Positions 1 through 2,232 of a DNA stretch of 64,000 nucleotides are shown in pieces. This DNA is from an uncultured Bacteroidia bacterium (GTDB taxonomy: Bacteria > Bacteroidota > Bacteroidia > Bacteroidales > UBA932): the NCBI GenBank assembly GCA_902801205.1, contig CADCHE010000002.1, positions 124,001-188,000 on the forward strand, in the 5' to 3' direction. Within the stretch, counting starts at the first letter, position 1; each line of letters begins with the position of its first letter. Below the pieces are notes generated by a model, which saw nothing but the letters and a program-made list of their open reading frames with translations, was not told the DNA's origin and searched no databases. The position numbers and the translations under genes were made by a program.

Positions 1-429
1 CCCGTCGTGTTCGGCATATCCCGCATTGAATCCAGGGAATCCGGCATGGTCGGAATGGTAATGGGAGAGCATCATGTAGTCGACCTCTTTGCCGTGTGGG
101 TTCACCCGCAGCACGTACCGGGCGATCCATTCGCCGGCGTGCCGGTCGGGGGAGGGCAGTACCGGGACGGCCAGTTTTCCCCGCCCGATGGCGTTGTGGT
201 CGCCGCAGTCGAGCAGCATCGTGGTCCCGTCCGGGAAGATCAGGAACATCGATTCCGCGACGCCGGTATAGATGAAATGCACCTGGAAGTGTCCTTTCTT
301 CCAGCCTTTCCAGGCGCGTCCGACGGCCTTGTCGGAGCGCCCCGCCGCCCAGGCGGTCTCCCCCCAGACGCCCAGCATCGCGGCGCCGGATGCGATGGCT
401 GTTGTTTTCAGAAATGTCCTTCTGTCCAT
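1..429 (-). CDS. Tat-exported metallo-beta-lactamase-fold protein, 5' part only
   Basis: The reading frame starts at the ATG whose complement is at 427-429 and runs off the left edge after 143 codons with no stop. The N-terminus MDRRTFLKTTA is a twin-arginine signal (RRTFLK) followed by a small-residue hydrophobic stretch, so export in folded form is likely. The segment SHYHSDHAG near residue 130 is the HxHxDH metal-binding motif of the metallo-beta-lactamase superfamily. The rest of the active site lies outside the window. Two other Tat-MBL proteins (32274 and 33217) have the same layout but are clearly different in sequence. Substrate unknown. It has its own promoter and points away from the transposase locus. 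Confidence 0.85.
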   Translation of the reverse strand, partial: MDRRTFLKTTAIASGAAMLGVWGETAWAAGRSDKAVGRAWKGWKKGHFQVHFIYTGVAESMFLIFPDGTTMLLDCGDHNAIGRGKLAVPVLPSPDRHAGEWIARYVLRVNPHGKEVDYMMLSHYHSDHAGFPGFNAGYAEHDG

Positions 430-506: not shown

Positions 507-538
507 CTTGCGCGGATCTGCCGGGCGTTTTGCCATTC

Positions 539-641
539 ATTGCGCACGGTTACCGGCGGTTGAGGGGCCTGGGAAGGCATCCGGTGTGCCTACCGGTGTC
601 CGGTTGAGGGCATTGCGCACGGTCACCGGCTTCTCAATGGC
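539..641. repeat. Two left-flank copies of the 73-bp direct repeat (second partial)
   Basis: Copies begin with ATTGCGCACGGT at 539 and 612, a 73-base step. The first is full length and closely matches the array at 1868-2232. The second keeps only about 20-30 bases (GCGCACGGTCACCGGC) before diverging at about 630-642. Both have the same orientation as the right-hand array. With the hairpin at 489-506 and the promoter at 676-711, they account for the gene-free stretch from 430 to 744. Confidence 0.85.
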
Positions 642-675
642 CTATACGTACGAATGGTGTGACCAATGAGCAAGT

Positions 676-711
676 TTTGTTTTATTATTCCCTAGAACAT
701 CGCTATATTTG
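676..711 (+). promoter_or_regulatory. Promoter of the RAYT transposase gene
   Basis: TATATTTG at 704-711 matches TAnnTTTG exactly. A TTTG at 676-679 could be the -33 element, but its spacing of 24 bases is longer than usual. The element matters for start choice: a TTG start at 709 would fall inside the -7 box, so translation more likely begins at the ATG at 745. Confidence 0.5.
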
Positions 712-744
712 GACGAGCAGCCACATGAGGCGGTTGATTTGAAG

Positions 745-1707
745 ATGAAGATACAGGGTGCTTTATTAGCGCAGATTCGGCGCGACCTGTCCATGGACGT
801 TCCGTATGTCCGAGGGGAAGACCTTCCGGTCCGGCGGTGCTGGCATTTCTATTCAGATGGCAGGGGGCTTGACGCAATGTTCCTCAATGACCGTGAATAT
901 CAAGATGGAATGAATCGGATTTTCTTGATATTCAACGATTTGCCGATAGTCTTGCTGGCTTTTTCATTAATGGATACGCATTTCCATTTTATCCTTTATG
1001 GCGATTTTGATACCTGTTGCGGCGCCATCCACGAATATGTGCGTCAGACGTCGAGGTACATTGCGATGAACCGCGATGAACGCAACAAACTGAAGCATGT
1101 CCCCATCAATCATCAGCGCATCACGGACAAGCGTTACTTGAAAACCGCCATCTGTTATACCTTGCGGAACGCTCCTGTCGGTGGAATCCCTTTCAACGCT
1201 TATGATTATCCGTGGTCCAGCGGTCCGTTGTACTTCCGCCGGACGGGACTGTGGAGTTCTCCGGCGTGGACGATCGACGGACTGGTTCAGAAGCCCTCGT
1301 TGAGTGCGCGCCGGCGATATGCCGTTTTCAAGACCAGGAATCCGGCCTTCCGGGAGGCCCTTACGGTAGGAGATCTTGTTTTCCCGGGGGAATATGTTGC
1401 TTTCGAAATCGTCGAGGAACTGTTCAAGACGTGCAAGGCGTTTCATTATTTCATGTGCTCCACGAAGGAGGAGACTGTCGAATCCAGGGGAGGCCAACTT
1501 CTTTCCCTGTCAATCCCGATCCAGGAATTACGGCAGCACCGTGATGAGATCTGCCGTGAGATGTTCGGGGAAGTCCGGGTCGGCGGTTTGGATGCTGCGC
1601 AACGCTTCAGGCTCGCAAGGGTGATCCGGAGCCGATATCTCTGCTCTCCAAAACAGATTGCCCATCTGTGTGGATTGAAGGAGGACGAGTTGGAGCCGTT
1701 GTTATAG
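745..1707 (+). CDS. REP-associated tyrosine transposase (RAYT, Y1/HUH family)
   Basis: A 320-residue protein of the IS200-like Y1 transposase superfamily, RAYT branch. Visible signatures are the HUH motif DTHFHFIL (His79, His81), the CYTLRNAP segment near residue 139, which corresponds to the YIxxNPVRA block of RAYTs and carries the likely nucleophilic tyrosine, and DYPWSS near 154-159. The C-terminal region (CSPKQIAHLCGLKEDEL) looks like a helix-turn-helix. RAYTs are single-strand DNA endonucleases tied to REP elements; most are domesticated single-copy genes flanked by the repeats they act on. Here 73-bp direct repeats lie on both sides. The frame opens earlier at a TTG (709), but that codon sits in the promoter. 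The gene looks intact. Confidence 0.85.
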   Translation: MKIQGALLAQIRRDLSMDVPYVRGEDLPVRRCWHFYSDGRGLDAMFLNDREYQDGMNRIFLIFNDLPIVLLAFSLMDTHFHFILYGDFDTCCGAIHEYVRQTSRYIAMNRDERNKLKHVPINHQRITDKRYLKTAICYTLRNAPVGGIPFNAYDYPWSSGPLYFRRTGLWSSPAWTIDGLVQKPSLSARRRYAVFKTRNPAFREALTVGDLVFPGEYVAFEIVEELFKTCKAFHYFMCSTKEETVESRGGQLLSLSIPIQELRQHRDEICREMFGEVRVGGLDAAQRFRLARVIRSRYLCSPKQIAHLCGLKEDELEPLL

Positions 1708-1867
1708 GCCGGCGACGGGGAAACTGCAAGCAGAGCCGGTCAAGGCCCGTGACGGCGGGTTGGCAGGAGGGGGGAATGGCTCGCCAGGGTAGGATTATGG
1801 GATCGGGTCTTCTCAGGAAACGTGATGGCGATTCGGCCGGCGCGACAGGCGTGACAGGCGGGGGAGT

Positions 1868-2232
1868 ATTGCGCACGGTTGCCGGCAGTTGAGGGGCCTG
1901 GGAGGGCATCCGGTGTGCTTACTGGTGTCAGGTTGAGGGCATTGCGCACGGTAGCCGGCAGTTGAGGGGCCTGTGAGGGCATCCGGTGTGCTTACTAGTG
2001 TCCGTTCGGGGGTATTGCGCACGGTTGCCGGCAGTTGAGGGGCCTGTGAGGGCATCCGGTGTGCTTACCGGTGTCCGTTCGGGGGTATTGCGCACGGTTG
2101 CCGGCAGTTGAGGGGCCTGGGAGGGCATCCGGTGTGCTTACTGGTGTTCGATTGGGGGCATTGCGCACGGTAGCTGGCAATGGAGCGGCCTGTGGATGGG
2201 ATGCGTGTTGCCAATGGCCGGGGGGCCGGGAG
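1868..2232. repeat. Right-flank array of five 73-bp direct repeats beside the RAYT gene
   Basis: Units begin with ATTGCGCACGG at 1868, 1941, 2014, 2087 and 2160: exactly 73 bases each time, with no spacers. The first four are nearly identical; the fifth decays after about 30 bases. Each good unit holds GTTG or GTAG followed by CCGG, about 24 bases, then CCGG and GTGC, which can pair with the upstream CCGG and GCAC. A foot tetranucleotide plus an imperfect stem is REP-like. Bases 1708-1867 hold no gene, only one GGGAATGGC unit (1772-1780) and a short ACAGGCG duplication near 1850. Confidence 0.85.

Follow-up and report, generated by a model that had tools for sequence, protein, structure and literature searches.

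The REPINs described in Proteobacteria are pairs of inverted repeats with a fixed spacing, conserved ends and a free spacer, which also occur as tandem clusters; in P. fluorescens SBW25, 101 GI REPINs have been aligned (Bertels and Rainey 2011, PMC3116915). According to that description, a distinctive single-copy RAYT gene goes with each repeat class and has its own repeats beside it, and a REPIN is built from two 16-mers, with 71 bp from the first residue of one to that of the other. Among the TnpAY1 proteins, subclass 2.6 is composed of members from Bacteroidetes, with a median length of 179 aa, for which the classification (Quentin et al. 2018, PMC6006769) gives "atypical secondary structures", no GT[AG]G and flanking structures that are copied elsewhere in the genome. 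TIRYTs (subclass 2.1) and the TIRtrons that they form (De Nocera et al. 2013, PMC3733652; PMC6006769) combine a RAYT-like gene with flanking repeats that are not of the GTAG type, which can form dispersed families and of which some are doubly palindromic; these proteins carry an extra C-terminal domain, described as DnaA- or HTH-like in subclass 2.1.2 (PMC6006769). As far as these papers go, recognition of repeats by RAYTs has been studied mostly with GTAG-type pairs.

The locus described here is located in the window (the whole 64,000-nt stretch of Bacteroidales DNA that was analysed) and is composed of a RAYT-like gene with members of a palindromic repeat family on both sides (Table 1). With a probability of about 0.7, it belongs to a RAYT-REPIN-like system of unusual, strictly sized four-arm architecture, a reading that draws on computed results for the gene family, the geometry of the element, the covariation of its arms, the match of arms between genes and solitary copies, and one solitary copy kept in place in two species. 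The first-pass annotation, which had taken the locus for a Bacteroidales REPtron (a RAYT-type gene bracketed by its own repeats), was right in this respect.

Table 1. Features of the locus, in window coordinates
Feature	Position	Strand	Description and basis
Left end element	529..674	+	146 nt, four-arm palindrome including units 539 and 612; R2 24.2 bits, E 4.8e-5 (64 kb)
RAYT-like Y1/HUH protein gene	745..1707	+	320 aa from ATG 745; 332 aa from TTG 709; 29-sequence alignment
Right end, expanded	1868..2159	+	four full 73-nt half-units (1868, 1941, 2014, 2087); unit identities, R2
Terminal divergent half-unit of right end	2160..2221	+	counterpart of 612-674; identity to unit 1941, weak R2 match

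Like the RAYT-REPIN systems of Proteobacteria, this one has distinctive single genes with their own repeats beside them, paired inverted repeats at a fixed spacing, and tandem clusters; unlike them, it has elements of 147-149 nt with four arms in place of two 16-mers, arms that can differ completely between genes and between 2 and roughly 20 element sites in each of the six genomes that were searched in depth, without the high copy number typical of REPs (comparison with the account in PMC3116915). As with REPs and REPINs, the palindromes in relatives are dispersed, mostly extragenic and matched to a RAYT, although the host genome holds only two diverged copies. Subclass 2.6 resembles the present family in coming from Bacteroidetes, in lacking GT[AG]G and in having its flanking structures copied elsewhere, but its motifs are NH[LIV]H, WQ and YIH[QN]NP, whereas here proteins of about 320 aa show MDTHxHF and Y-x-x-[KR]-N-x-P, with no W before the Y in the window protein (by eye against Table 1 of PMC6006769). 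Subclass 2.6 could include a relative of the 148-nt family. The resemblance to TIRtrons lies in the RAYT-like gene, the non-GTAG flanking repeats, their dispersal and double palindromes, and an extra C-terminal domain, here a predicted one; the differences are that GGGGWSAS, the motif shared by TIRtron repeats (PMC3733652), was found in only 3 of the 114 elements searched, and that the flanks are here direct copies of one palindrome of constant length. No description of a 148-nt four-arm family was found in the literature searched, which left most subscription journals outside. What appears new is a REPtron-like pair whose element has a strictly constant size and whose arms, matched to the gene, change rapidly; the RAYT/REPIN kind of system is already known.

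An alignment of 29 sequences (the window protein and 28 relatives) contains a HUH motif and a single catalytic tyrosine in a Y-x-x-x-N(P) context; H79, H81 and Y138 are invariant in all 29, confirming the HUH/Y transposase-type gene initially proposed, and N142 is present in at least 90% of them, the window protein having NAP where NP is expected. The W-Q/E motif is absent, as there is no W between H81 and Y138 in either the window protein or the 29-sequence consensus. The profile NF047646 (REP_Tyr_transpos) is matched by 21 of the 29 members and PF01797 (Y1_Tnp) by 18 (E<=0.1; best 4.2e-10 and 2e-5, respectively). The window protein itself matches neither at this threshold; searched alone, it gave no Pfam match at E<=1 and only one unrelated family in NCBIfam (E 0.12). 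A sequence-profile search of the PDB gave a single match, to a ribosomal protein (E 0.75), that was taken as chance. Aligned to E. coli K-12 RayT (TnpAREP) with hhalign, H79xH81 falls on HMH, Y138 on the Y of DYIYINP and DYPWSS on DWPFST, which is a weak match (p 0.021, probability 2%), and when 11 E. coli proteins are compared with the family profile, the same protein scores highest, also weakly (hmmsearch, 7.1 bits). It differs in having a WE motif, to whose W no W corresponds in the window protein, and in being half as long. Translation likely starts at ATG 745 rather than at TTG 709, as the relatives begin there too.

The C-terminal 66 aa are predicted with confidence to form four helices (pLDDT 85.5), and Foldseek matches this model weakly and without significance (E 3-4) to folds among which are DnaA domain IV and a small HTH protein; a Pfam search with 10 C-termini returned a few weak HTH matches and none above the curated cut-off, and the AlphaFold model of the whole protein, made with two sequences, was poor (pLDDT 39.8) and was set aside. 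Relatives are found at E<=1e-3 in 155 of 298 genomes, including the host (150 from the same genus, and five weak matches elsewhere). The host genome has three RAYT matches with very different scores, paralogs within G001, G036 and G096 are 68-73% identical at the DNA level, and near-identical copies within one genome do not appear among the matches listed. Among viral contigs, 40 stretches fit a pattern, none of which is a relative. Judged from these sequences, the family is apparently a divergent RAYT-like one made up of distinct single genes, not of amplified IS copies.

The repeat units start at 539, 612, 1868, 1941, 2014, 2087 and 2160, all on one strand and with neighbours exactly 73 bases apart, as originally reported: within 1868-2232, 244 of 292 bases match themselves at a lag of 73, against 66-94 at lags of 68-72 and 74-78; the best 73-base match at this lag (71 bases) was equalled in none of 1000 base shuffles; and TRF finds a 73-base unit in 4.5 copies at 1868-2194. 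The units are not, however, the exact repeats that they were thought to be. Five of them (539, 1868, 1941, 2014 and 2087) are real copies, with pairwise identities of 61-70 of 73 bases, whereas the outermost two, 612 and 2160, are identical to other units at only 38-44 of 73 positions, the likeness being concentrated in the first 20-35 bases (22 of the initial 30 between units 612 and 1941; 31 of the initial 35, and 44 of 73 overall, between units 2160 and 1941). These two are the divergent far halves of a longer element.

The nature of this longer element is evident from the relatives. Direct repeats spanning the gene (E<1e-4) occur at 20 of 30 RAYT loci, the window included, one of them being only 32 nt long and several of the 30 loci being cut by contig ends, and an alignment of 23 end elements, taken from 12 loci, spans about 148 columns with hardly a gap. 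The element in these same-genus relatives is a palindrome with four arms of about 10 nt that alternate in direction. After dropping duplicates and matches shorter than 115 nt (the element alignment, A4, took in 150 of 178 matches), 114 distinct elements were obtained, of which 108 measure 147-149 nt, a figure to be read with the preference of the covariance model for its own length, by which elements of very different length would be missed; arms of the same direction are 72-73 nt apart in 109. Each half is of the form arm-loop-arm', so that an inverted pair also reads as a tandem, and each 73-nt unit is half of a palindrome of about 148 nt. The earlier idea of a 73-bp tandem unit that stands in for the usual BIME pair has therefore to be replaced: the basic element is the four-arm palindrome, and its arrangement is paired and inverted, as in REPINs.

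Both ways of folding the element pair the arms well above controls, with 81.3% of arm cells pairing in a two-hairpin fold (53.5% in shuffled and 32-38% in slid controls) and 80.4% in an outer/inner fold (57.7% and 28-44%), and the latter fold also has pairing beyond the arms, in the outer flanks and at the centre. Despite this pairing, the sequence of the arms varies greatly from locus to locus. The loops have a weak, symmetric consensus (T42 in 92% and A35 in 73% of 77 elements) and no covariation, which indicates that the arms are kept complementary and the loops are not. The GTAG/GTTG-like foot that had been assigned to the unit is not a feature of the family, as GT[AG]G was found within the 14 outer positions at only 1 of the 228 ends of the 114 elements. 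Because subclasses without GTAG are described (PMC6006769), its absence excludes the GTAG type rather than RAYTs at large.

Complementary arms alone fit base pairing and repeated protein sites alike, and their covariation would equally arise from four repeated duplex binding sites. It could be argued, accordingly, that the element is a binding-site array of a domesticated DNA-binding protein, regulatory or chromosome-organising and not mobile, in which the C-terminal domain binds four boxes of fixed helical spacing and the HUH part is secondary. The near-constant length (about +-1 nt over fully different sequences in those 108 elements), the spacing of same-direction arms, close to seven turns, and loops that are symmetric without covarying, as protein contacts would make them, all agree with such an array, as does the predicted C-terminal four-helix domain with its non-significant DnaA- and HTH-type matches. 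We consider it quite unlikely, however, since the outer/inner pairing reaches the flanks and the centre, and single-stranded DNA of the ends from three relatives folds 5-9 sd better than shuffles (z -5.4, -8.3 and -9.2). Two-against-two arm differences point weakly in the same direction: of 29 such cases in 77 partly related elements (16 of cruciform, 8 of hairpin and 5 of direct type), 24 keep pairing in one fold, against 19 expected.

A reading of rather low probability would combine both ideas: the arms may be duplex boxes about seven helical turns apart in the same direction, read by the added C-terminal domain, with four RAYT units assembling on a duplex of about 14 turns before the HUH domain nicks, so that swapping the arm word would change specificity while the geometry stays frozen. 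If this were true, the genus would contain many protein-site pairs that are orthogonal to one another, and the tandem arrays would provide additional sites for assembly.

The strong folding of the relatives is not found in the window, where single-strand fold z was -1.1 for 529-674, -0.8 for 1868-1940 and 0.0 for 2014-2086, none of the three stretches folding clearly better than shuffled DNA. The imperfect stem initially described is therefore weak at the locus itself and strong in the ends of the three relatives. This difference identifies the window locus as a decayed or altered member of the family, with its right end expanded.

Two models built without the window differ in how they score its ends. 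R1, a covariance model trained on RAYT ends from 12 genomes, places them at chance level, with 10.4 and 8.3 bits, less than the 13.5 bits of a match that lies within uvrA. R2, a second model made from 90 matches (both strands) in 36 relatives' loci, does separate them when the 64 kb are searched: besides the left end it finds 1873-1991 (23.9 bits, E 5.9e-5) and 2019-2137 (18.3 bits, E 0.0026) in the right end, and the same window-end matches come out at E near 0.002 over the whole host genome. The match that reaches into the 2160 half-unit is weak (contig 126087-126215, that is window 2087-2215; 15.8 bits, E 0.54 over the genome). Applied to 298 genomes at E<=0.01 per genome, R1 matches 70, of which 69 are among the 180 same-genus genomes; at this threshold a few of the 70 may be chance, for example G253, from outside the genus (E 0.005), and as the scan scored at most 10 candidates per genome, its per-genome counts are minima.

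Elements also occur away from the gene. Among the stretches examined, 32 of the 114 distinct elements (33 genomes) lie within 400 nt of a RAYT and 82 do not. These solitary copies are depleted in ORFs: 18 of 52 (those of the 82 with 900 nt on both sides) are inside an ORF of at least 450 nt, versus 1440 of 2186 random points. In one case the position of a solitary copy is shared by two species, G003 and G149, whose left flanks are 91% identical over 857 nt and right flanks 68% over 691 nt; this copy was most likely inherited. Three solitary copies in G112 (L206, L207 and L210) share 184-205 nt of upstream flank, 98-99% identical and with inverted ends, indicating a larger composite repeat. At L192 and L193 in G149, two elements lie close together, separated by 14 and 27 nt, and differ in their arm words; the leading element at each of these places bears the arm word of the RAYT-flanking elements of G003, the other species.

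Whether the unit recurs in the host depends on which unit is meant. The exact 73-base unit was discarded as a dispersed repeat, since its six matches in the host genome are all at the window locus. Two diverged solitary copies of 148 nt were found by R2 on other contigs (55.1 and 42.5 bits), copies of this kind being common in relatives; the 55.1-bit one has two arms one mismatch from a window arm and is tied as the closest among the 114 elements.

Solitary copies can be compared with the gene-flanking elements by their arms. For nine genomes with both kinds of copy, the arms of 26 out of 32 solitary copies deviate at no more than 2 of 10 positions from a RAYT-flanking arm of their own genome and those of six do not match, compared with 48 of 512 comparisons to other genomes, and none of 10,000 permutations was as good. 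This count moves one element (L140, 497 nt from a RAYT) from solitary to flanking, without which it is 22 of 33. The arms of the 26 matched pairs are 0.90 identical, a value partly due to the selection of the pairs, and the loops 0.53, against 0.33 and 0.41 in unmatched pairs. Genomes with two (G061 and G001) or three (G096) RAYTs have separate arm words, each with its own matching solitary copies, although the match of the third RAYT of G096 depends on the reassignment of L140. As the solitary arm words mostly fit one gene copy, the pairs look like natural partners of enzyme and recognition site.

Across genomes, the expectation that the element tracks the RAYT is borne out in part. With cut-offs chosen by the authors (RAYT E<=1e-60, element E<=1e-10) and genomes read by hand from tables, strong elements are present in 18 of 23 genomes that have a close RAYT; the same-genus genomes that lack one number 157, and 22 of them have strong elements too. 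When the 12 genomes used for training R1 are removed, the figures become 6 of 11 and 22 of 157 (p 0.003). The five close-RAYT genomes with no R1 match at 1e-10 include the host; four of them have weaker matches and G015 has none. Conversely, G157 and G059, with at least 8 and at least 7 elements, have no RAYT among the matches listed; the bins are incomplete and several contigs end at repeats, and some of these elements are near contig ends, so that the gene may be missing through incomplete assembly or because the species itself has lost it.

Arms vary freely between genes, whereas the geometry is fixed. Over 17 loci, protein similarity and arm similarity were not correlated (Mantel r -0.01; 2371 of 5000 permutations as high), and the 12 listed protein pairs of 65-69% identity show 3-9 mismatches per 10 arm positions. 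This independence suggests that specificity changes quickly.

Gene and ends could also be a self-mobile, IS-like transposon with long terminal direct repeats, the gene and its two ends moving together and the solitary copies being "solo ends" that remain after recombination between the two direct repeats. In several loci, the ends of a given gene indeed resemble each other more than either resembles solitary copies (loop identities of 0.97 in L022, 0.87 in L215 and 0.84 in L087, against the mean of 0.53 for matched solitary copies), and the location in the window is not shared: no RAYT was found within 1,500 nt on each side of uvrA at 29 other loci, or of the upstream neighbour gene at 19. This neighbour (window 1-429, minus strand) has what we take to be a metallo-beta-lactamase-like HxHxDH motif, and is matched in 20 of 179 other genomes. 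A shared ancestral location beside either gene was thus discarded within 1,500 nt; as a result, neither an empty site nor a target site could be defined, and no empty site that would document movement was found at the loci examined. The IS-like explanation is nevertheless unlikely. Near-identical RAYT copies, expected of an active IS, are missing among the matches listed, with only the divergent paralogs mentioned above; some loci are inherited in place, as neighbouring proteins are 92-97% identical between L013 and L015 and 80-84% among L031, L032 and L034; and the left and right ends of L102 and L183 are as different as unrelated ones (loops 0.38 and 0.34). IS200/IS605 elements differ further in their ends, which are short hairpins and not direct-repeat palindromes of 147-149 nt.

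The 73-base array itself is a local expansion of a half-element, and thus a derived detail of the larger system. A G-rich, minisatellite-like stretch (periods 10, 27, 38 and 56 by TRF) occupies 2213-2374, directly after the array and before the end of uvrA. Given these neighbouring tandem repeats, the array might be taken for a common minisatellite whose position next to the gene is fortuitous, all the more since four RAYT loci have arrays of period 50-300 and three of these loci belong to the host, so that arrays may be a habit of one genome. This is very improbable, as the unit is present on both sides of the gene and R2 finds both ends; half-unit arrays with a step of about 72-78 recur at two places in G096 (C6 and C34), and arrays of period 50-300 are found at 4 of 32 RAYT loci but at 0 of 29 uvrA loci and 0 of 17 neighbour-gene loci. 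The other RAYT paralogs of the host (L218, 2557-3206, on C10, and L219 on C8) are beside arrays of other periods, about 124 nt with other arm-like words, and about 97 nt plus longer spacings.

Returning to the RAYT-REPIN-like reading, the HUH/Y1 protein would recognise an arm word of about 10 nt, present four times and in alternating direction in each element of 147-149 nt. The gene is flanked by two copies of the element, with solitary copies elsewhere, and each gene has its own arm word. By analogy with E. coli TnpAREP, the protein could bind and nick the element, as single-stranded hairpins or as a cruciform, and nicking could in turn copy the element to new places. At the window locus, the right end seems to have grown from two to five half-units and to have lost the strong hairpin of its relatives. 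Slippage or unequal exchange between the 73-base repeats would be the simplest route for this expansion, possibly helped by nicking; a single sequence fits slippage, unequal exchange and the RAYT-driven copying initially suggested alike.

One bacterial genus thus offers many gene-element pairs in which the geometry is frozen and the arm words are free, sometimes with several pairs in one genome. With so many pairs, and with solitary copies that show which word fits which gene, specificity and the choice between single strand and duplex become directly testable by arm swaps. The system extends REPIN-like biology, with an architecture of its own, into gut Bacteroidales.
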